Origin: a virus
Strand: one strand, 5' to 3'
DNA length: 29,612 nucleotides
Virus record (IMG/VR): IMGVR_UViG_3300036402_000304
Location: 1 to 29,612 of that record
Shown here: positions 1-10,086 of the stretch, piece by piece
Position numbering within the stretch: position 1 is the first letter of the stretch
Layout of the letters: every line of letters starts with the position of its first letter
Translations under genes and position numbers: made by a program
Notes under the pieces: model-generated
What the model saw: the letters and a program-made list of their open reading frames with translations, nothing else
Told to the model about the DNA's origin: nothing
Database searches by the model: none

Positions 1-84
1 TTGACACGTCGGGCAAATCACCGGCATACATTCACATCGCAAGAACTCAAAAGCCCGCACCGGAAGACCGGGGGCGGGCTTTTT
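1..84 (+). repeat. Promoter-terminator repeat, copy 1
   Basis: First of five copies of a roughly 85-bp element. It opens with TTGACA at 1-6, has an 18-bp spacer holding the invariant CGTCGGGCAAATCAC, and then CATACA at 25-30 in the -10 position. About 23 bases later comes a GC-rich hairpin (53-79) followed by a T-run at 80-84, the form of an intrinsic terminator. If both parts work, the product is an RNA of about 45 nt. This copy has the weakest -10 and diverges most (CCGGCAT instead of CCTGCAT). The promoter and terminator roles are inferred from consensus only. Confidence 0.75.
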
Positions 85-183
85 GGTACCTGGAGGTTTG
101 AATCGGGCGGTCGTTGCCGTCACATTTCCGTTGTGTCGCCGTATTTTCGCTGTGCCGTGCCCGCTGGGCTCAAGGACATCGCG

Positions 184-530
184 ATGAAGAAAATGCTTGT
201 GGGCGCTTTGATAGCAGGTTCGTTGGTTTCGTTCGAGGCGAGAGCCCAACGACGCGCCGGAAGTGCAGCACTGGGCGCGGTGTCGGGCGCCGTCGTACCG
301 GGACCGGTCGGGGCGGCGGCAGGTGCGTTCATCGGACACACCGCTGGACCGTCGATCACGCGCTGGGGAATGCAGCGATCCTCATCTCGATCCGGCGCAA
401 GGCATGCAACACAATTCGGCCCAGTACCCCAGCGACAGGCGGCCGCTGTGGCAGGTCCGCCGTCAGCGGTCAGGACTTCGCCGCTTCGGCCAAGAGAGTC
501 GCGCCACCACCGGTTCAGGGGTTCGAATAG
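184..530 (+). pseudogene. Glycine-zipper secreted protein, frameshifted
   Basis: From ATG 184 the frame encodes a signal peptide (MKKMLVGALIAGSLVSFEARAQ) and then a glycine/alanine zipper around residues 25-55 (ALGAVSGAVV, GAAAGAFIG), the pattern of small exported glycine-zipper proteins. The usual C-terminus, which I remember as ending in PPVQGFE, appears in a different frame and ends with TAG at 528-530 (VAPPPVQGFE). The starting frame stays open to 900 but there it only reads through the downstream repeat. The frame change must lie between about 400 and 490. The signal and zipper are seen directly; family membership and the expected C-terminus are from memory. It is probably a decayed exported protein lying between two repeat copies. 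Confidence 0.55.
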
Positions 531-567
531 AGCACCGGCGCGCGACGCGAGGGGCGCGACAAGATAT

Positions 568-652
568 TTGACACGTCGGGCAAATCACCTGCATATCTTC
601 ATCATTGCAAGAATTCAAAGGCCCGCGCCGGGAAACCGGCCGCGGGTTTTTT
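568..652 (+). repeat. Promoter-terminator repeat, copy 2
   Basis: TTGACA at 568-573, an 18-bp spacer identical in its core to the other copies, CATATC at 592-597, then a hairpin of CCCGCG/CGCGGG and CCGG/CCGG arms with a GAAA loop (622-646) and six T at 647-652. It lies just downstream of the broken glycine-zipper gene. The 230 bases that follow hold no gene I can recognise. Confidence 0.8.
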
Positions 653-881
653 CAATCCGGTCTGTTGTGCCGCGAGCGGACCGCTGTGTGCTTCGCCACG
701 TTTTCCGCGCAAAACATCCTGAGGGAACCGGCAGTAGTTACGGGCGAACTGTGCGAAGGGTCCTCAGAATAGGAAATAAACGGGGCAGGAGAGTTCTCGA
801 GGAACGGCAGCGTGATTTCAATCGACAGTCGGCTTCTAGCGGTACGACGTCTCTCATTATAGCGAGGCTAGTGTGCAAGTG

Positions 882-986
882 CTCGAAGCGAAATTCTTGA
901 GTTCGGACAGTATCGATGACGCGGTGGCGCTGTACAACGCCCGCAAGTTCATCCGGCGCGGAGGCGCGGATTGGCCAGAGATTTGA
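882..986 (+). pseudogene. Scaffold protein C-terminal relic 1
   Basis: One frame reads LSSDSIDDAVALYNARK and continues to a TGA at 984-986. This matches the C-terminus of the full-length scaffold-type gene at 22027-23244 (LSSSGDIRDAVALYHARK). No start codon or upstream body of the gene is present, so it is a 3' fragment. Its stop codon lies inside the TTGACA hexamer of the next repeat copy, so the relic and the repeat are directly joined. It is probably the remains of an earlier duplication or of a second prophage. Confidence 0.65.
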
Positions 987-1067
987 CACGTCGGGCAAAT
1001 CACCTGCATATTGTCACCATCGCAACAATTCAAAAGCCCGCGCCGGGAAACCGGCGGCGGGCTTTTT
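983..1067 (+). repeat. Promoter-terminator repeat, copy 3
   Basis: TTGACA at 983-988, an 18-bp spacer, CATATT at 1007-1012, then a hairpin at 1036-1062 with arms GCCCG/CGGGC and GCCGG/CCGGC around a GAAA loop, and a T-run at 1063-1067. The expected start near 1019 would give a transcript of about 49 nt. This copy follows scaffold relic 1 directly. Confidence 0.8.
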
Positions 1068-1086
1068 CAGTTCGCATTTCCTGAAT

Positions 1087-1205
1087 CGGACGGCGGCCGC
1101 ACGTCATGGCGCCACATCCTCCCATGCAATGCTGCCAGAAGCGTCGCAAGCGGGCCGCCGTCCGAACCTGATCCTGAGTTTTGCCGGCACGCGCGAACGT
1201 GCCGG
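1087..1205. repeat. Nested inverted repeats in non-coding spacer
   Basis: CGGACGGCGGCC at 1087-1098 is repeated as its exact reverse complement at 1153-1164, giving a 12-bp stem with a 54-base loop. A second perfect stem, CCGGCACG/CGTGCCGG, lies at 1184-1205 with a 6-base loop. Neither is followed by a T-run, so they do not look like terminators. No convincing gene covers 1068-1331. They could be protein-binding palindromes or a REP-like sequence. Confidence 0.5.
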
Positions 1206-1331
1206 TGCGCGGGCGTGGCAAAAGTCCACGGCCGCACGCGGCCTCCATGGCATGGAGATAAGGTTCGCGCCCGAAATGATCGCTGAGGCGGTCATGCCGC
1301 ATATTTATTTCCTACCGAGGAGGTGGCCGAC

Positions 1332-1403
1332 ATGACCGCATCGCTGATTGCGCTCGCCCTGGCAGCCCTCATCGCCATTGCGGTGTGGGAGGCGTTCGAC
1401 TGA
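1332..1403 (+). CDS. 23-residue single-pass membrane peptide
   Basis: A short open frame from ATG 1332 to TGA 1401-1403 encodes MTASLIALALAALIAIAVW and then EAFD. It is almost entirely a hydrophobic alpha-helix, long enough to cross a membrane once. A strong Shine-Dalgarno sequence (GAGGAGGTGG) lies at about 1317-1326, at normal spacing, which is the main reason to believe it. It stands alone upstream of the terminase genes. Its function is unknown; small membrane peptides of this kind occur as phage accessory products. Confidence 0.5.
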   Translation: MTASLIALALAALIAIAVWEAFD

Positions 1404-1533
1404 GGCGTAAGACCATTCGGTTCGTGCCGCGCCAACAGCACAGTACGAACGGATGCTCGAAGCTCGCTTTTTGTTCAAACGGCAAGGCCCGGCAATGATG
1501 TGGCGGATCATGCTGACATACGGCCTCGCGTAG

Positions 1534-1818
1534 ATGTCGGGGCAAGTCTCAAAGGAAGCCAGATCAAAGATGGCCAAGGCGGTTACCAAAATTCGCTCGC
1601 TGGCGCGCAGCCACACCAGGGCGGCGCTCAAAGTCCTGTTCGGCGTCATGCGATCGGAAGACGCAACACCGGCAGCGCGGGTGTCCGCGGCCAATGCCAT
1701 TCTGGATCGTGGTTGGGGCAAGGCGCCACAAGCAAACGGGAATGGCGGCGACGGCTGGCGGGAACTGATCGATAGAATCGAGCGTATCATTGTCCACCCT
1801 GATAATTCCCACAGCTAG
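1534..1818 (+). CDS. Putative small terminase subunit-like protein
   Basis: A 94-residue basic, helical protein. Residues 13-60 (KAVTKIRSLARSHTRAALKV and a run ending in AANAILDRGWGK) have the pattern of a short DNA-binding domain often found just before large terminase genes, where the small subunit recognises the packaging site. The C-terminus (WRELIDRIERIIVH) is probably an oligomerisation helix. ATG 1534 has little ribosome-binding signal. ATG 1570, 36 bases on, has AAGGAAG about 12 bases upstream and is a possible alternative start. Its end overlaps the large terminase start by 29 bases, suggesting translational coupling. The role is inferred mainly from position, size and composition. 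Confidence 0.6.
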   Translation: MSGQVSKEARSKMAKAVTKIRSLARSHTRAALKVLFGVMRSEDATPAARVSAANAILDRGWGKAPQANGNGGDGWRELIDRIERIIVHPDNSHS

Positions 1819-3072
1819 GATCTTCGAGCCGCTACTGGCACCGTCGCGCTACAAGGGCGCGTATGGGGGGCGCGGCTCGGGAAAGTCCCATTTCTTCGGC
1901 GAGTTGCTGGTCGAGACTTGCCAGGCTGAGCGTGGCACGCTGGCGGTGTGCATTCGCGAGGCGCAAAGAACGCTGATGCAATCGTCCAAGCGGCTGATTG
2001 AGAGCAAGATCGCGGGTCTCGGCCTCGGTCACCAGTTCAAGGTCTTCAGCGACAAGATCGCGACGCCCGGAGATGGTGCGATCATTTTTCGGGGCCTTCA
2101 GGATCACACCGCCGAGTCGATCAAATCACTGGAAGGATTCCGGATCGCCTGGATCGACGAGGCACAGAACCTCAGCTCGCGCAGCCTGGCGCTGCTGCGC
2201 CCAACCATTCGCACCGCAGGGTCAGAGCTGTGGGCGAGCTGGAATCCGCGACGCAAGTCCGACGCAATCGACGATTTCTTCCGGGTGAGCCGGCCGGCGC
2301 GATTGTCGTCAATGCCAACTGGCGTGACAATCCCTGGTTTCCCGCCGTGCTGGAGGAGGAACGCAAGACGGACCTGTCGCTCTACCCCGACCGGTACGAC
2401 CACATTTGGGAAGGCGATTATGTGAGGATGTTCGAGGGCGCCTATTTTGCGCAAATGCTTTCCGAAGCGCGGGCGCAGGGCCGGATCGGCAAGGTCTCGG
2501 CCGATCCACTGCTGCCGCTACGTGCCTTCATCGACATCGGCGGCGCTGGCGCCACCGCCGATGCCTTCACGATGTGGGTGGTGCAGTGGGTGGGACAAGA
2601 AATCCGAGTCCTCGATTATTACGAGAGCGTCGGCCAGGTGCTGGCGTTTCATGTCAACTGGCTGCGTTCGCGCGGTTATGCCAACGCGATCCTTTATCTG
2701 CCGCATGATGGCGTCAACCAGAACAACATCACCGGCAAGCGCTACGAGGATCATCTGCGCGAAGCCGGCTTCAACGTCGAGCCGCCGGTGAAGAACCAGG
2801 GCAGGGGGGCGGCGATGATGCGGGTCGAGGCGCTGCGAAGGCTGGGGCCGCAGATCTGGTGGAACGAGGCGACGACGGAGCCCGGCCGCGACGCCGTCGG
2901 CTTTTATCACGAGCGCAAGGACGACGTTCGCAATGTCGGACTCGGGCCGGAGCATGACTGGTCCAGCCACGCGGCGGATGCGCTTGGGTTGATGGCGATC
3001 TGTTACCAGGAGCCGGGGCGGGCGGCGAGTTTCAACCGGACGATCCGGTATCGCGAGCAGGGGTGGGTGTGA
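1790..3072 (+). pseudogene. Terminase large subunit, single-base frameshift
   Basis: The packaging ATPase-nuclease that drives DNA into the prohead. From TTG 1790 the N-terminal ATPase shows Walker A GGRGSGKS (residues 26-33), Walker B IAWIDEAQ with D123 and E124, and a coupling motif SWNP (150-153). The frame is lost after FFR at about 2283. The nuclease half continues at once in the next frame as GEPAGAIVV, includes an acidic strand (FIDIGG) and ends near DWSSHAADALG. Adding one G to the GGG run at 2283-2285 restores a continuous protein of 427 residues, a normal length. No canonical slippery heptamer is present, so programmed frameshifting is unlikely. It is either a true inactivating deletion or a base-calling error. 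Confidence 0.85.
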
Positions 3073-3300
3073 AGGCATGTTGCAACGACAGTGATCGCAG
3101 CAGCATTCGATCATTTCTTGCCGCGGGCGGGGTTCTTGCCTCGTATCGCCCTGCGCACACCATGAGATGCGGTGGCGCTATACACAGCCATGGCTCGGAT
3201 AGAGATTTCACAAGCCGAGCTCTGGACGATCGGTCCGATCGCGATCCTTTGTCGCTCTATTGGATAAACCGGACCCTCCGAAAGCCCGAACGGGTATCGT

Positions 3301-3640
3301 TTGAGCCGGCGCTTTGCCGACCAGCCAGAATTTATCCTGCCCGATTCAGCGATGCGGGCGCTGACGCCTGATGAGATCCCCGCCGAGCTTCCGACTTCGT
3401 TCGATGACCGCTTTGGAGACTGGGTTTCTTCGGGTGGAGCCAGTGCACCGCGTGGTCCGTATCAACCGGAGCCGCAAAACCAGGCGGCCCGATCACTCGG
3501 GACTGTCAACGGCAAGTGGATGCCTGACTGGCCGTTTCTGCCCCCGATCTGGGGTTTGCCGATCGGCCACCGACCACTCTTGCGGAAGACTGGGCCATGC
3601 GCGGCTGAGGCCTGCCGAATGGAACAAGAAGGCGCGCTAA
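3301..3640 (+). pseudogene. Decayed proline-rich accessory protein
   Basis: An open frame from TTG 3301 gives a plausible N-terminus with acidic and proline-rich segments (TPDEIPAELPTSFDDRFGDW) and later PDWPFLPPIWGLP. The last segment resembles MPPIWPVIPLP in the cargo-type gene at 17315. The frame stays open beyond 3640 but then runs over the start of the portal gene in another register, so the real gene must end or decay before about 3700. I do not recognise a function. The preceding 3073-3300 holds no recognisable gene. Confidence 0.35.
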
Positions 3641-3703
3641 CGCGTAGCGCGGGCTCGGCGGCGAATCTGAGCTCATTCACTCATTTGAATCGAGACTTTC
3701 ACC

Positions 3704-4279
3704 ATGTCAAAAATGTCCTTATCCGATCTCAAATCCATGCTCGCCTCCGAAAAAGCCGACGCACTAGCCGGCATCTCGGCGGCACGGTTGATGGAAGAGC
3801 GCGCCGATGCGATGGATTATTACCTCGGCGATATGCGCAAGGACATGCCGGCGCAGGACGGCCGTTCGCGGGCGGTCTCGACCGATGTCGCCGACATCAT
3901 CGAAGGCCTGATGCCGTCGCTGATGGATATCTTTGCCGGGTCCGACGAAGTCGTCCGCTTCGAACCGGTGGGGCCCGAGGACGAAGCGGCGGCACAGCAG
4001 GAAACCGATTACGTCAACCACGTTTTTATGCAGCAAAATCCCGGCTTTATGGTGTTGTATTCCTTCATCAAGGACGCGCTGCTTTCCAAGGTCGGAATCG
4101 TAAAGGTGTGGTGGGAGGAGCGTGAGGAAGAGAGCCGCGAAACTTATTACGATCTCACCGACGACCAGTTCGCGCTGTTGGCGCAGGCCGTGACGGAATC
4201 CAACGGCGCGATGAAGATCGTGGCGCATACGGTGCACGGGGTAGGCGATGTGGCGGAAGAATCGAAAGTGATCAGTTGA
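3704..4279 (+). pseudogene. Portal protein, N-terminal fragment
   Basis: Start of a P22-like portal protein, the ring at the head vertex through which DNA enters and leaves. ATG 3704 opens MSKMSLSDLKSMLASEKADA, followed by the helical region and the wing domain, with the typical DVADIIEGLMPSLMDIFAG at residues 66-84. Homology stops at about residue 190 (ESKVI). The frame then ends at TGA 4277-4279, inside the foreign segment 4271-5231. The second half lies at 5235-6812. Removing 961 bp between two GATCA copies rejoins the halves in frame into about 715 residues, close to the P22 portal's 725. Confidence 0.85.
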
Positions 4280-4468
4280 AAATGTGTGGGCCGTGTTCGG
4301 GCTTATGGCCACGAAAAATGGGAAGAGGCCCAAGGAAGCAGGGCGAAGCCGCCGAGTGCCCAGGCAAGTATAATACGATCATTAAGGACCCCTTTTCTCG
4401 ATACTGTCTGCCGGCTTCTGTGAGGCATGCAGGGTCGATCGCGCTCGCATCGCTCAGGACACGAAGGC

Positions 4469-4621
4469 TCAAAAAGTAGAAGCCAAAAGGCTCTTGTGTT
4501 TCCAGGTCTTGCCTGAAGCAAGGCTGTTGTAGATCAAACGGGTGAAATTCAGGTTTCGTCCTGCAAGAAACAGAACTCCGCAGCCCCAAGCCACGACGAA
4601 GCTGATGGCAACATAGGTCAT
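4469..4621 (-). CDS. 50-residue membrane protein
   Basis: On the minus strand, ATG at 4621-4619 starts a frame encoding MTYVAISFVVAWGCGVLFLA followed by a polar, basic tail ending in LLASTF. The first 20 residues form one clear transmembrane helix. The sequence upstream on that strand has CGGAG about 7 bases before the start, a reasonable ribosome-binding site. It is the only minus-strand gene in this part and lies within the portal insertion, so it is probably accessory cargo. I do not recognise the family. Confidence 0.5.
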   Translation of the reverse strand: MTYVAISFVVAWGCGVLFLAGRNLNFTRLIYNSLASGKTWKHKSLLASTF

Positions 4622-4745
4622 TGCGAACTCCGTTTCTCGACCTGCCAGCGCGCACTGCCATCGTTGCTTCTATTGGCCCTGGCTGCGCGTCGCGTGCTTA
4701 TCGCTTCTTTAATATCAAAGGGTACGAGCCCATGTCGGTCAATGA

Positions 4746-5106
4746 AATGGGAATCCCCGACCGGATGGATATTCTGCAACGTTACCGTTCGTTGGAATAG
4801 GCGGGACCTATTACGTGAACCCAGGCTCACCTACGGCTCCCAAGGTCACGCTGACAGGCGGCCTCGGCCTAGGCGGAGGTGGAGTGCATTCCACCTTTCC
4901 AAGAAAGGGATTGACCGTCGGTCGGGTTCCTTGAATCGGGCGATCAGGATTCGTTCGGCGGCGGAATGCTCGGCTGGCAGGCGTCGGTAGACGGCGTGGA
5001 TCCGCGGTCGCCAACTGCACCGATTCCGCCGCAGCAGCCAGCATCGGAACCGAATGGGTTGCTCGGGCGCCTGCTGGAGTACCAGCGCACTGACCGCGGC
5101 TACTGA
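4746..5106 (+). pseudogene. Decayed accessory gene with GLLGRLL C-terminus
   Basis: Two consecutive frames look coding. The first (4746 to about 4930) reads PFVGIGGTYYVNPGSPTAPK and a glycine-rich run (GGLGLGGGG). The second (about 4930-5106) reads SGDQDSFGGGMLGWQ, a proline-rich stretch, and ends NGLLGRLLEYQRTDRGY. The change of frame near 4930 and the lack of a start mark it as a relic. The closing motif resembles GGLLGRLLALQAEQSGY in the gene at 17315 and GGLRGRLLSL at 20040-20105. Function is unknown. It could be the tail end of a virion-associated cargo protein. Confidence 0.4.
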
Positions 5107-5159
5107 GAAGCGGCCGCTCGCTTGCGGATTTTGTCGCCGCCCCATTTCCAAACCTAGTA

Positions 5160-6812
5160 TTGACAGACGAGCTCATGAATATGCCCATTCCCTTGCTTTC
5201 CTTGCCGGTGCCGGCCCTAGCTGTGTCCCCGATCACGCACGACGTCACCATCGTCTCCACGCGAAAAGTCGCCCAGGCCAAGGTGCTCGGCGTGCCACCG
5301 GAAGAGTTCGGCATCGAGCGCGGCGCGCGCAGCATCCGCGACTGCAACTACTGCTTCCACGAGGTCGTCACCAAGACCGAAGGGCAGCTGATCGCTGAAG
5401 GTTTTGATCAGGAACAGATCAGGTCGCTCGGCGACACCGCAGGCAATGCTGACACCGAGAGGCGTTCCCGAGATAGCGGCGCCAGCGGTGTGAACTCAGC
5501 GGCGCGGCTGGTGCGCATCACCGAGCATTACGTGCGGATGGACTACGAAGGTAGCGGCCGGCCCGGCCTCTACCAGGTCATTAGCGGTGGCGACCAAAGC
5601 GAGATCCTGCGCAAGGATGGCCGTGAGTGCGTTACCCCGTTCGACGCCATCCCGTTTGCGACGACGACACCAGTGCCGGTGACGCATCGGTTCTTCGGCC
5701 GATCGATCGCCGATCTCGTGATGCCCCTGCAGCGGGAGAAAACCGCCTTGAAGCGTGGCGCGCTGGACAATCTCTATTTGCATAACAATCCGCGGGTCGA
5801 AGTGGCCGAATCCAACGCCGGGCCGAATACGCTCGACGATTTGCTGGTGTCGCGCCCGGGCGGGGTGGTCCGCACCAAGACCGCCGGCGGACTGAATTGG
5901 CAGGTGGTGCCTGACATTACCACGTCGATCTACCCGATGTTGCAGTATATCGATGCCGAGTTGGAAACCCGCAGCGGACTGGCCCGGCAAAGCCAGGGAA
6001 TCGATGCCAACGCGCTGCAGAACCAATCCGCCACCGCGGTGGCGCAGGTGTTCTCGGCCTCGCAAATGCGCATCAAACTGATCGCCCGCATCATGGCCGA
6101 AGGCGTGCGGGATATCTTCGCGCTGCTGCACGGCACGATCCGAAAGCACGGCCAGATGCGAGAGACGGTGCGGCTGCGCAATGCTTGGGTCGATGTCGAT
6201 CCGCGCAGCTGGAAAACCCGTAATGATATGATCATCAATGTGGGCCTGGGCGCCGGTGGCAAGGCGCAGCAGTTCGCGCAGGTGATGGCGCTCGCCAATA
6301 TCCAGAAGCAACTGGTGGCGGGCGGCAAGGCGCATCTGGTCGGCGACCGCGAGCTTTACAATACCGCGGCGGAACTGACCAAGATCATGGGGCACAAGAA
6401 TCCCGACCGGTTCTTTTGCGATCCCACCGCTACCGATCCGCAAACCGGCCAATTGCTAAATCCGCCGCCGCCGCCGGCACTACCGCCCGATCCAAAATTG
6501 CTGGCGCTGCAAGCGAAGGCACAGGCCGACCAGGCTGCCGCCGCGCACAAGTCGCAGTTCGAGCAGCAGAGGGCGCAGAACGACGCCATCCACCAGCAGG
6601 TCAAGACCCAGGCGGAGATCGAGCTAGCAAAGATCAAGGCTGAGCTCGACGCCCGGATGAAACTGCTGGACGCGCATCTGAAGGCATCGGATGAGGCGAC
6701 GAAGCCGCGGCCTTTCCATCCAGCGGGCGCGCGGAAAGCCAGCGATGGCCACCACTATGTTGTGGACCCGAAGCGGCCCGGCAAACACTTATTGGTGGTT
6801 CATCATGGCTGA
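5160..6812 (+). pseudogene. Portal protein, C-terminal fragment
   Basis: An open frame of 550 codons from TTG 5160. The first 25 residues come from the insertion; portal homology starts at THDVTIVSTRK. Recognisable portal features follow: EEFGIERGARSIRDCNYCFHEV, the stem and crown region (SRPGGVVRTKT to ELETRSGLARQSQGID), and an alanine/glutamine-rich coiled coil at roughly residues 440-510 behind a proline run. The end overlaps the next gene's ATG by 8 bases. Without its N-terminal 190 residues this cannot form a normal portal ring. The long antisense frame opposite 5496-6452 is a codon-bias shadow. Confidence 0.85.
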
Positions 6813-7146
6813 TTTTTCTCTGGTGCCTGTCGACTATCAGCCGGATTTCTCCGACTTCTCACTCGTTCCGGTAGACTATGATCCGTTCGGTGCCGATGGC
6901 GCACAACAGCCAGGGATGCGACGGGGAAGCCAGGCCCAGCCACCGGCTACGGGAGCCGTTTACCTCGATATCGGCGGCCAATTCTCGGATGGCGACAAGA
7001 CGGCCGATATCGCAAGAAGCGGTATCGGCGGTGCGCCGAGGCTCGCGCCATCGGTCGCACCATCCGATGGCTATGCAGGCAAATCGGAGTGCAATTGCCG
7101 GAGTTCGCAGCTGGATACGGCGGCATCTATGGTCAAGCGAGCCTAG
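6805..7146 (+). pseudogene. Accessory virion-type protein, decayed after N-terminus
   Basis: ATG 6805 overlaps the portal stop by 8 bases and starts a protein with a tandem N-terminal duplication: DFSLVPVDY at residues 3-11 and again at 17-25, joined by QPDFS. I remember this N-terminus from larger prophage proteins of Bradyrhizobium with variable C-terminal parts. Here the frame ends at 7146, but a good continuation (QLPEFAAGYGGIYGQASLGQ) appears in another frame from 7089, so a frameshift lies near 7080. That second frame stays open to 7436, though its later part is not convincing. It is probably the remnant of a multi-domain cargo gene. Duplicated portal 3' ends lie on both sides of it. 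Confidence 0.5.
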
Positions 7147-7442
7147 GACAGTCGCTGAGCGATGGTTACAGAGCCGATGTCCCTTATTGGTCAAAGTCAT
7201 CCAAAACCGGATCAAACCTACAACAATTTAGCATGGCCAGTCACGCTGCCTATAGTAGATGCGTGGACAAGTGCTTACACTTGCTGCCTTTGCCTAGCGG
7301 TGACTTGTTCGGAATTTCGGCTGTGTGTAGCCCGATGCATGGGACGTCTCTGATGGATATCCAAACTGGTTGGCAACCGGCGGCAATGGCCTTGGCACGA
7401 GGTGCGTTGCGCGACATCGCCGAAGAGACCGCGTAAAGCTGG

Positions 7443-7620
7443 AAACCCAGAGATTGAGCTGGCAAAGATCACGGCCGAGCTCGCTGCCAAAATGGCGCTG
7501 CTCGATGCCCATCTGAAGACGGCCGGCGAAACGTAGAAGGCGCAGCGTTCCCACGTGCTTGGACCCGGGAGCCGAGGGACGGGGCCATTATGTTGAAGAC
7601 CCGGGCCGGCCTGGCAGAAG
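7443..7620 (+). pseudogene. Second, degenerate portal 3' end
   Basis: From 7443 the frame reads PEIELAKITAELAAKMALLD and AHLKTAGE, then TAG. This parallels AEIELAKIKAELDARMKLLD and AHLKASDE near the C-terminus of the portal gene (about 6613-6700). Nucleotide similarity continues beyond the stop: the segment around 7585-7620 (TATGTTGAAGACCCGGGCCG) mirrors TATGTTGTGGACCCGAAGCG near 6760. It is therefore a diverged duplicate of the portal's last 60 codons, with a premature stop and indels. Together with the intact copy it brackets the accessory gene at 6805. Confidence 0.7.
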
Positions 7621-7818
7621 ATAAAACTCTCGATGTCGACAGCATTTCAGATTGTCTCAGTTCAACGCCCAACCAAACCTGCTAAGCCCCGCCTGTCGAG
7701 TTGCGAAGGCAAGAAGGGCGTCAATCCGCAGGCCGGACATTGCTACTTCCCCCAATGCCGTTGCCGTCACCCGATCCACAACTGCCAGCACTTACGAGAA
7801 CACAAAGGAGGGCATCCG

Positions 7819-8118
7819 ATGTCTGATGAGAACAGGCTTGACGAGGCTGCGGCAAAGGCGGTCCGCGCCCAGCAATTGCTCGACAACGATCTGCTGAGAG
7901 AAGCATTCGCCGAACTCGAGCAAAACTACACTGCGGCATGGCGGGCCACCACGATCGATGATGTCGGCGGGAGAGAGAAATTATTTCTTGCCATCAATGT
8001 TGTCGGCAAGGTGCGCGATCATCTGGGCGCCATCATCGCCAACGGAAAGCTGGCGCAGGCTGAACTAAAGGAGCTGTCGCAGGTAGCCGAACGCAGGAAG
8101 CGGTTTGGGATCGTGTGA
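7819..8118 (+). CDS. Conserved phage protein between portal and capsid
   Basis: A 99-residue acidic, helical protein (MSDENRLDEAAAKAVRAQQL to AERRKRFGIV). ATG 7819 is chosen because AAGGAGG lies 9 bases upstream; the open frame extends back to 7633, but that part looks unlike protein. The sequence is mostly amphipathic helix with a long C-terminal coiled coil (LAQAELKELSQVAERRKR). I remember similar small proteins in prophages of this type between portal and capsid genes. The function is not known to me; an assembly or packaging accessory role would fit its position. Confidence 0.65.
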   Translation: MSDENRLDEAAAKAVRAQQLLDNDLLREAFAELEQNYTAAWRATTIDDVGGREKLFLAINVVGKVRDHLGAIIANGKLAQAELKELSQVAERRKRFGIV

Positions 8119-8169
8119 TGCCGGAGGAGCGGCCCGCAGCGGCGACGCCGTAAGCGGGAATCGACGATA

Positions 8170-8200
8170 TTCGCAATCCGAGCACAAGCTGTGCTATACT
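8170..8200 (+). promoter_or_regulatory. Possible promoter for the 63-residue gene
   Basis: TATACT at 8195-8200 is a good -10 hexamer and lies 24 bases before ATG 8224. The best -35 candidate is TTCGCA at 8170-8175 with a long 19-base spacer, so the call is weak. Confidence 0.25.
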
Positions 8201-8223
8201 CGGAGGGGAAAGCAGGAGGCACA

Positions 8224-8415
8224 ATGTCGGCCGACACCATTGAAAAAGTGATTACGAACGCCATCCATACAGCGTTTATCAAGTATCCCGAGGGCGATGG
8301 TGGGCCTAACCTGGACTATGAATGGATTGCGCCCGAGCAAAGCTCGCATATCACCAAGGCGATTCTCCTGGACCTTGCAGCGAACGGGTTTCAAATCACA
8401 AAGAAGGGCAGCTAA
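8224..8415 (+). CDS. 63-residue hypothetical protein
   Basis: ATG 8224 follows an excellent Shine-Dalgarno sequence (AGGAGG, about 7 bases upstream). The product (MSADTIEKVITNAIHTAFIK and so on, ending QITKKGS) is soluble, has an aromatic centre (LDYEWIAPEQ) and a helical second half (HITKAILLDLAANGF). No family is recognised. It stands alone between the 99-residue gene and two repeat copies, with a possible promoter of its own, and may be an accessory gene expressed in the lysogen. Confidence 0.6.
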   Translation: MSADTIEKVITNAIHTAFIKYPEGDGGPNLDYEWIAPEQSSHITKAILLDLAANGFQITKKGS

Positions 8416-8470
8416 GCCAAACGTCGCGGCACCCAATTCACGAATTGTGCCTCTGACCTGATTTCAGGAT

Positions 8471-8552
8471 TTGACACGTCGGGCAAATCACCTGCATAAT
8501 TTCATCATCGCAAGAATTGAGCCCGCGCCGGGAAACTGGCCGCGGGCTTTCT
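8471..8552 (+). repeat. Promoter-terminator repeat, copy 4
   Basis: TTGACA at 8471-8476, an 18-bp spacer, and CATAAT at 8495-8500, the best -10 of the five copies. The hairpin GCCCGCG/CGCGGGC spans 8521-8547, followed by a poor T-run (TTTCTCT), so termination may be leaky here. It lies 55 bases after the 63-residue gene. Confidence 0.8.
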
Positions 8553-8562
8553 CTCGCCCGGT

Positions 8563-8746
8563 ACCTGCGACATGGCAAGCGCCGCCGTTAGAGGCTGACA
8601 AACAAGCCGGGGCAGATATGCGCGCGCTCGATGCGATGCTTTCAAGCTCCGGCAATATTCGGGACGCGGTGGCGTTGTACAACGCGAGAATAATTTGCCT
8701 AGCGCTAGGCGCGCCGCCATGGGAATCGCATCCGACCCTTTGCTGA
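8563..8746 (+). pseudogene. Scaffold protein C-terminal relic 2
   Basis: The frame ending at TGA 8744-8746 contains MRALDAMLSSSGNIRDAVAL followed by YNAR, parallel to LRTLNARLSSSGDIRDAVAL and YHAR at the C-terminus of the full scaffold gene (about 23155-23230). The conserved lysine end is replaced by an unrelated tail (IICLALGAPPW). No upstream body of the gene exists: the relic starts directly after repeat copy 4 and is followed 2 bases later by copy 5. In phages of this type the scaffold gene normally precedes the capsid gene, which is exactly where this relic lies. Confidence 0.65.
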
Positions 8747-8748
8747 AC

Positions 8749-8832
8749 TTGACACGTCGGGCAAATCACCTGCATAAATCCATCATCGCAAGAATTGAGC
8801 CCGCGCCCGGATAGCCGATCGCGGGCTTTTTT
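8749..8832 (+). repeat. Promoter-terminator repeat, copy 5
   Basis: TTGACA at 8749-8754, an 18-bp spacer, CATAAA at 8773-8778, then hairpin arms GCCCGCG (8799-8805) and CGCGGGC (8820-8826) and six T at 8827-8832. It sits about 290 bases before the capsid gene. Between it and ATG 9124 I see no gene, only a leader. Confidence 0.8.
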
Positions 8833-9123
8833 GTATCCAACGGCGGCCGCGTCACCGCGGCTGTCATTGGCGCTTTCGAACACCAGTTTACCGAACTGGC
8901 GATCAGCCAACGCCGACCCCACCGCTAGGGCGGGCGCCCGGCCAAGACCTTACGACAGCCGAACCGGAAGCGATGCTTCCGCGCCATCGCGCGTCCGAGG
9001 TCTTCAGACTCAACTTGAATCAGGAATCCAACGAACCGGCGCAGTCAATGCCCGGTCAGAGCCTCCGCACGGTCCGGCCGATGGCTGCCCGGCGCTGGGC
9101 ATCACTTTAGGGAAATCACAACT

Positions 9124-10086
9124 ATGGCCTTACCGACTTCCACCTTCGCCACCTACCAGGCGGTTGGCAACCGCGAAGATCTCTCTGACATGATCTATCG
9201 GATCGATCCGACCGATACGCCGTTCATGAGCAGCGTCGAGAAGGAGAAAGCGTCCGCTGTCAACCACGAATGGCAGACCCAGGCGCTCGCCGCGGCTTCC
9301 TCGGCGAATGCGCAGCTTGAAGGCGATGATCCGACCACCACCGTCACCACACCTACGGTGCGGCTCGGCAATCTCTGCCAGATCTCCTACAAGGTGGCGC
9401 GTGTGTCGGGCACCCAGCAGGCCGTCGACCATGCCGGCCGCGACAACGAACTCGCCTATCAGGAGATGTTAAAGGGCCTCGAGCTGAAGCGCGATATCGA
9501 AACCATCCTGGTCGGCACCAACCAGGCCAAGGTTGCGGGTGACACCGTCACACCGCGCAAGACCGCTTCCATTCTTTCGTGGATCGGGAGCAATACCTCG
9601 AAGAGCACGGCCGGCTCACCCGCCGATCCCTTGGCGGTCGACGGTACCGACACCCGCGACGACGGCACACCCGTCGCATTCACCGAAGCGCGGCTCAAGT
9701 CCGTGCTTTCCTCGATCTGGATCAACGGCGGCAAGCCCGGGACCATCATGACCGGCGCCTTCAACAAGCAGGTGTTCTCGACTTTCACCGGCCGGGCCAC
9801 TGCGGTCGAGGAGGCCAAATCGAAGAAGATCGTGGCTTCAGTCGACGCCTACGAATCCGATTTCGGCAAGCTCAAGGTGGTGGCGAACCGCTTCCAGCGT
9901 CCGCGTGACGTACTGGTGCTGGAGATGGACAAGTGGGCGGTGGCCTATCTCAACGGGCGCAACATGCTCTCCATCCCGCTGGCGAAATCCGGTGATTCCG
10001 ACCGGTGCCAGATCCTGGCGGAATACGCGCTGGTTGCCCGCAACGAGAAAGCCTCCGGCGGCGTGTTCGACAACACCGCGTCCTGA
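9124..10086 (+). CDS. Major capsid protein, SU10/DUF5309-like
   Basis: A 320-residue protein that forms the icosahedral shell. It starts MALPTSTFATYQAVGNREDL and has the expected early motif (RIDPTDTPFMSSVEKEKA, residues 28-45), followed by HEWQTQAL, a beta-rich domain with GNLCQISYKVARVSGTQQAV, a long spine helix (ELAYQEMLKGLELKRDIETI, about residues 109-130), and a C-terminal region with IMTGAFNKQVFSTF and a receptor-like end (EYALVARNEKASGGV). Length and order fit the DUF5309 family of major head proteins. ATG 9124 is preceded by AGGGAAA. The frame is intact. It opens the coupled virion module that runs to 16156. Confidence 0.9.
   Translation: MALPTSTFATYQAVGNREDLSDMIYRIDPTDTPFMSSVEKEKASAVNHEWQTQALAAASSANAQLEGDDPTTTVTTPTVRLGNLCQISYKVARVSGTQQAVDHAGRDNELAYQEMLKGLELKRDIETILVGTNQAKVAGDTVTPRKTASILSWIGSNTSKSTAGSPADPLAVDGTDTRDDGTPVAFTEARLKSVLSSIWINGGKPGTIMTGAFNKQVFSTFTGRATAVEEAKSKKIVASVDAYESDFGKLKVVANRFQRPRDVLVLEMDKWAVAYLNGRNMLSIPLAKSGDSDRCQILAEYALVARNEKASGGVFDNTAS

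Follow-up and report, generated by a model that had tools for sequence, protein, structure and literature searches.

A repeated promoter-terminator element lies before packaging, portal and capsid genes in a phage-derived Bradyrhizobium cluster and may gate their expression

Why would a phage-derived stretch of DNA repeatedly place a complete promoter immediately ahead of a terminator, with its late genes behind? The IMG/VR virus record IMGVR_UViG_3300036402_000304, whose full 29,612 bases we analysed and call the window, raises this question. It carries five copies of an element on the plus strand, each with TTGACA as -35, an 18-bp spacer, a -10 box resembling CATAAT and a hairpin followed by a T-run, all exactly where the initial annotation had placed them. 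Copy 1 occupies 1-84 (-35 at 1-6; spacer at 7-24, ending CCGG; -10 at 25-30, CATACA; hairpin at 52-80; T-run at 80-84), copy 2 occupies 568-652 (568-573; 574-591; 592-597, CATATC; 620-647; 647-652) and copy 3 occupies 983-1067 (983-988; 989-1006; 1007-1012, CATATT; 1035-1062; 1063-1067). The remaining two lie some kilobases downstream, copy 4 at 8471-8552 (8471-8476; 8477-8494; 8495-8500, CATAAT; 8520-8548; 8548-8552) and copy 5 at 8749-8832 (8749-8754; 8755-8772; 8773-8778, CATAAA; 8798-8827; 8827-8832). An 18-base core, with up to three mismatches allowed, matched the window five times against 0.05 matches expected from shuffled sequence. A generic sigma-70 scan found only the copies at 983 and 8471, the other three being missed because the last -10 position is not a T. 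With a probability of about one half, we read the element as a cis-regulatory unit in which a promoter would be gated by a leader terminator that a spacer-loaded antiterminator relieves.

The five copies belong to a larger family. Scanning viral contigs for TTGACACGTCGGGCAAATCACC returned 56 stretches and scanning genomes with the exact 20-mer returned at least 120, nearly all of them from Bradyrhizobium, which bears out the link to this genus that had initially been suggested; phage and plasmid collections gave no match to the element. About 80 copies lie in IMG/VR contigs, and many more copies occur in Bradyrhizobium genomes. Across 115 copies the hairpin starts near position 52 of the element with a median folding energy of -21.7 kcal/mol, and the predicted RNA measures about 47-52 nt in most. 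An intrinsic terminator (E < -12) lies behind 73 of the 80 distinct viral copies, compared with 99 of 3000 random positions (3.3%), and stands between the promoter and the first gene. In an alignment of 64 copies, 93.9% of hairpin cells are paired, and double changes that preserve pairing affect 6 pairs and 19 cells, against means of 2.6 and 4.4 in shuffled controls. The hairpin arms thus pass the covariation check that the initial annotation had named, and its anatomical proposal of a promoter, a very short transcribed region and an intrinsic terminator is supported; the three functions that it suggested are less favoured, as set out below.

Positions 1-20 served to find most copies, and conservation there was not judged from those copies. 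We relied instead on nine copies found through a structured leader RNA, R1 (described below), by locating the element near R1 with up to four mismatches. In these nine, TTGAC, positions 7-14, position 16 and positions 19-20 are invariant, and differences occur at positions 6 and 18 and where the -10 box ends. Positions 25-28 (CATA) and 33-43 (YCANCATCGCA) are conserved across the family without having been selected for; the latter would span about -4 to +7. The stretch between the start and the hairpin varies among copies in length and sequence. Isolated copies in Bradyrhizobium sp. BTAi1 retain TTG and CGTCGGGCAAATCA and have lost ACA. The most constant part of the element is therefore apparently its untranscribed spacer, a feature that plain promoters or small RNA genes would not need. 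Sequence conservation thus marks candidate recognition DNA between -35 and -10.

Placement and direction are equally regular. Where the fetched DNA around a terminator-bearing copy included a gene for terS, terL, portal or the major head protein (MCP), copy and gene were co-directional in 85 of 85 cases. Downstream, the first of these genes to be met is the MCP gene in 33 instances, the N-terminal part of the portal gene in 14 and the start of terS/terL in 38, and the nearest copy lies 304-548 nt, 120-213 nt and mostly 390-670 nt away, respectively. In the window, copies 1 and 3 lie 1.57 kb and 587 nt from the terS-like gene, and copies 4 and 5 lie 653 and 375 nt from the MCP gene. Direction and targets are consistent across more than 50 loci. 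Copies also occur as arrays in which two or three units follow one another at intervals of about 155 or 175 bp; the gaps contain no open reading frame (ORF) longer than about 29 aa, and some units adjoin a gene on the other strand. Terminators of upstream genes fail as a general account of these elements, since many copies directly follow an other-strand gene or another element, and a random prophage repeat or chance promoter is ruled out by placement and covariation.

Copies of the core are of two kinds: a phage kind with the terminator, and a dispersed chromosomal kind without it that has a conserved upstream half. Most chromosomal copies of the 20-mer belong to this separate dispersed repeat, whose second half, CAAAATATCGAAAACAACCCCATGCAAAG, lies 40-60 bp upstream. 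Of the genome copies, 93 are accompanied by the upstream half, and a terminator follows just 5 of these; none of 76 viral copies has the half beside it. Among 41 sampled genomes the half was found in 36, frequently 20-70 times, and it is absent from BTAi1. The terminator and the upstream half separate the two kinds, so that a single dispersed family was rejected. Downstream of dispersed copies, the neighbouring gene is on the other strand in 53 instances and on the same strand in 33, and these copies are not arranged as promoters of their neighbours. On Bradyrhizobium chromosomes the whole appears as a two-part intergenic repeat, CAAAATATCGAAAACAACCCCATGCAAAG-(40-60 bp)-TTGACACGTCGGGCAAATCAG, for example in stretches L071, L091 and L116. 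A third repeat family was seen in BTAi1 (L219-L229), in which TTGnnnCGTCGGGCAAATCA lies between conserved blocks, with TGCCCGTCGTGCCAGTTTGTCGC upstream and GAGGGRCGTTTCGCGATCGTCACGA downstream.

The two kinds nevertheless share a variable feature. Positions 15-20 occur as AAATCA, AAAACA or AACTCA, and in genomes that have both kinds, cluster copies match the dominant dispersed variant at two spacer bases. Cluster and dispersed copies both carry AAAACA in genomes G139, G020, G022, G091, G097 and G140 (for G140, the cluster was recognised from an array of seven copies that lies on a separate contig) and both carry AAATCA in G080, G105, G004 and G103. The G112 cluster has three AACTCA copies and one AAATCA copy, and the dispersed copies of that genome are mainly AACTCA and AAATCA. 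In a head-protein tree, where G007 is disregarded owing to a sequence taken in the wrong frame, AAAACA genomes occupy two separate positions, with support of 95/94 for a five-genome group and 83/81 for a pair that includes G140. When copies in the AAAACA genomes were sorted by position, the A that ends TTGACA was present in 21 of 27 cluster copies versus 14 of 90 dispersed copies (Fisher p ~3e-9, uncorrected for relatedness). Given the agreement of variants within genomes, these patterns suggest a trans-acting, DNA-reading factor that treats the spacer alike in both kinds, with cluster copies additionally held, we infer, to a consensus -35. Taken further, and tentatively since we think it unlikely as a whole, a host-encoded Bradyrhizobium factor might read one 14-bp spacer code in dozens of dispersed repeats and in the capsid cluster, its DNA preference drifting between species and both sets of sites following; in that case terminator-gated promoters would link the making of particles to an antitermination network that spans the genome and acts at repeated spacer sites.

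How might the element work? A housekeeping-type promoter (TTGACA, 18-bp spacer, CATAWN) would fire by default, and an intrinsic terminator beginning about 16 nt after the start would abort its RNA at about 50 nt. A factor reading the invariant 14 bp within the -35/-10 spacer (CGTCGGGCAAATCA) would load onto RNA polymerase, and polymerase so loaded would pass the leader terminator and express the packaging, portal and capsid genes. The elements would then probably serve as on/off switches for making phage-like particles. We infer that transcription starts here, that termination can be relieved and that it is an antiterminator, rather than a plain activator or repressor, that recognises the spacer. 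Default termination with antiterminator-dependent read-through is favoured because the layout matches lambda pR'-tR', the AlpA promoters and the putative GafZ element.

Several observations weigh against this reading. The 85 co-directional copies share ancestry, and are not independent trials, and most were selected by positions 1-20. Roughly two in three close relatives have no capsid-proximal copy, although many of these retain copies on the terS side, and the terminator is absent from about 7 of 80 viral copies and from one tandem copy in loci of the BTAi1 and STM 3809 type. The last base of the -10 box is not consistently T, and the core also occurs in the dispersed repeats, whose neighbours are not arranged like promoter targets. 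Scans with Pfam and PHROGs found no antiterminator-type protein among the cluster proteins covered; relatives of GafZ and AlpA were not searched for genome-wide.

Other explanations account for part of the evidence. Complete promoter-terminator anatomy, arrays devoid of sizeable ORFs and conservation of the first few nucleotides of the predicted RNA would all suit genes for regulatory RNAs of about 50 nt (or sponges), with the hairpin merely their terminator and their location before late genes inherited. This resembles the family of tiny RNAs proposed initially, and we regard it as possible but improbable: the best-conserved part is spacer DNA that would not be transcribed, the stretch from start to hairpin varies in length and sequence, and the fixed place and direction (85 of 85), with strict association with three late genes, are left unexplained. 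A transcriptional road-block insulating cargo genes, also suggested initially, is disfavoured, since the promoter precedes the terminator and the units of an array, about 155 bp apart, leave hardly any space or none for coding sequence between them. Less probable than regulatory RNAs is an asymmetric repressor site overlying the -35, comparable to the operators and stoperators of cluster A mycobacteriophages, that silences the cluster with added help from the terminator. The site is indeed, like stoperators, a repeated asymmetric sequence, in one direction relative to transcription and overlapping a promoter, but the cluster proteins scanned included no repressor gene, stoperators occupy many intergenic spaces genome-wide whereas these elements precede three late genes only, and a repressor alone needs no covarying terminator 16 nt further on.

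Two further proposals were considered. Promoter-terminator repeats could provide homology for shuffling small genes, as PeSLs of T4-like phages may do; variable small genes do lie between some copies, and PeSLs are described as composite promoter-terminator motifs tied to shuffling. The small cassettes keep alive something of the recombination landmark envisaged in the initial annotation, but the covarying terminator is left unexplained, as are the constant direction and the constant set of target genes, many arrays contain no gene at all, and spacer variants that track the host point to recognition by a protein. We therefore hold this explanation to be doubtful, more so than a repressor site. 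Least probable of all, in our judgement, is passive spread, in which the cluster acquired a functionless copy of a 47-bp module from the dispersed Bradyrhizobium repeat. The module is common to the cluster and to a repeat whose other half occurs in most of the sampled genomes, but that half accompanies none of the viral copies, BTAi1 lacks it and has retained its cluster copies, and covariation of the terminator and fixed placement would be unaccounted for.

Conserved structures lie behind the terminators. On the terS side of the window, all on the plus strand, a long inverted repeat (GAATCGGACGGCGGCCGC ... GCGGGCCGCCGTCCGA; 1083-1165) is conserved behind the last terS-side copy and is followed by R1 (1181-1304), a multi-helix leader RNA whose conserved structure has double changes in 10 of 34 pairs and possibly includes an invariant kissing pair, CGCGAA/TTCGCG. 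The GGGATA motif of R1 follows the first base of the element by 248-272 nt in loci with sufficient upstream DNA and a genuine-looking R1. R1 was also seen at L186 (10857-10984 and 13977-14104), L241, L242 and L251, and several loci carry the element and R1 together in duplicate. A micro-ORF of 23 aa (MTASLIALALAALIAIAVWEAFD; 1332-1403) belongs to the family MTAYLISLALxGLxAIAxWE, a membrane micro-ORF that lies behind R1 in many loci, 66-118 nt away where found. Between copy 5 and the capsid gene lies a second leader RNA, R2 (8893-9005, plus strand), with TTGGC/GCCAA, CCTGC/GCAGG and CCGGAAGC/GCTTCCG hairpins; it is present in 20 loci besides the window and shows double changes in 7 of 24 pairs (alignment A1). 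The covariance models of Rfam 15 gave no match in the window or in 18 genome loci, and none to R1 or R2 at E <= 1; both RNAs appear to be undescribed.

The genes that the elements precede form a phage-derived structural cluster under selection, either a gene transfer agent (GTA)-like cluster or a prophage, as concluded from gene content, shared host neighbours, and the distribution and substitution rates of the head protein. The window contains virion and tail genes, a split portal gene, a terS-like gene, the terminase large subunit and the major head protein; a TctC-type receptor gene at its end is probably host DNA. The terS-like gene (82 aa; 1570-1818, plus strand) matches phrog_15261 and, weakly, the terminase small subunit phrog_10899. 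The terminase large subunit (1790-3072, plus strand) occupies two overlapping frames in the window and a single 428-aa frame in BTAi1; a frameshift or sequencing error may be responsible, the gene being unbroken in both BTAi1 and G007. The MCP (320 aa; 9124-10086, plus strand) has a ratio of nonsynonymous to synonymous substitution (dN/dS) of about 0.07-0.14 against relatives, so that purifying selection (dN/dS ~0.1) was found on this gene, the only one measured. Of 147 Bradyrhizobium genomes, 28 encode this protein, almost all of them only once. The same cluster is present in BTAi1, at about 6.02-6.05 Mb, and in a second genome, G007, flanked by the same host genes, which from their sequences we take to encode a large kinase-like protein, an Nramp-type transporter, a malic-enzyme-like protein and an arginase-like protein. 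No replication or integration genes were seen among the cluster proteins scanned, many of which had no family match; the cluster ends were not followed.

Further features of the cluster were noted in passing. The portal gene, which is SU10-type in BTAi1, is split into two ORFs at about residue 192, a break point that about 20 loci share, with some 1-3 kb of other DNA between the halves. In the window the N-terminal part (~190 aa) lies at 3704-4279 on the plus strand and the remainder at 5160-6812, and in BTAi1 the halves lie at L185 2500-3090 and L184 from 18520. Small ORFs with the motif DAVALYNAR (873-986 and about 8623-8740) end at or just before copies 3 and 5, and a 24-bp stretch similar to their DNA recurs at 3166 and 23200 in the window. 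A membrane protein of 61-62 aa (MYFVAAVLAVLSGLFYAA..) is encoded on the opposite strand beside or between terS-side elements in L010, L037, L048, L060, L063, L073, L074, L131, L146 and others. The record begins exactly at the first base of copy 1, and contigs L011 and L013 begin within a few bases of a copy, probably reflecting assembly breaks at the repeat.

If these elements are terminator-gated promoters, dozens of lineages of Bradyrhizobium, bacteria of soil and nodules, hold packaging, portal and capsid genes behind promoter-terminator gates with a shared code. This would offer a testable handle on when and how a phage-derived cluster is switched on, and a route to the factor that controls it. 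The matching variants of cluster and chromosomal copies would then record, unusually, at the level of sequence, the co-evolution of a DNA-binding factor.

Known repeats differ from the element in instructive ways. Br-REP1/2 and the CGTC-tagged repetitive extragenic palindromes (REPs) are likewise intergenic repeats of Bradyrhizobium, but the element is directional and tied to a phage cluster. It does not match the printed Br-REP consensus, which rules out that identity on published descriptions, and by eye no palindrome of the tagged type (CGTC with an 8-9 bp stem and 4-5 nt loop) lies behind its CGTC (GGGCAAATCACC..). A literature search for the core in Bradyrhizobium returned a match that, by its title and abstract, concerns an unrelated subject. 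PeSLs are also repeated intergenic promoter-terminator motifs but are described as marking zones of shuffling in T4-like myoviruses, whereas the elements here precede fixed late genes.

The closest parallels are promoters that are controlled by antitermination. In lambda pR'-tR', a late promoter is recognised through its spacer by the antiterminator Q, with an intrinsic terminator nearby and the late genes behind. The element likewise has a close intrinsic terminator, putative recognition DNA between -35 and -10, and late genes downstream; in contrast to the single lambda copy, several copies occur here (before terS, portal and MCP genes, and in arrays) and the terminator is nearer, at about +16. 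No Q relative was found among the cluster proteins scanned. On paper the elements resemble pR'-tR', and we would describe them as a putative set of late promoters, each gated by a terminator, that recur in several copies and have one spacer code in common. At the Caulobacter crescentus GTA promoter, served by GafY, GafZ and IHF, the -35 is degenerate, the stretch from -35 to -10 contains a putative site for an antiterminator, and a terminator is formed by three 150-bp repeats downstream of the first gene (PMC11150451). Shared with the present system are an alphaproteobacterial phage-derived cluster, the position of the putative antiterminator site, a long untranslated leader and, presumably for our elements, terminator bypass; a consensus -35 and a short hairpin before the gene set ours apart. 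AlpA of Pseudomonas aeruginosa acts through an element between -35 and -10 of the alpB and PA0807 promoters, whose terminators start 54 and 26 nt behind the start, before the first gene (PMC7969949). The combination of spacer element and leader terminator matches the putative one described here, although AlpA has two target operons and no arrays, unlike the repeated units that precede three late genes in Bradyrhizobium.

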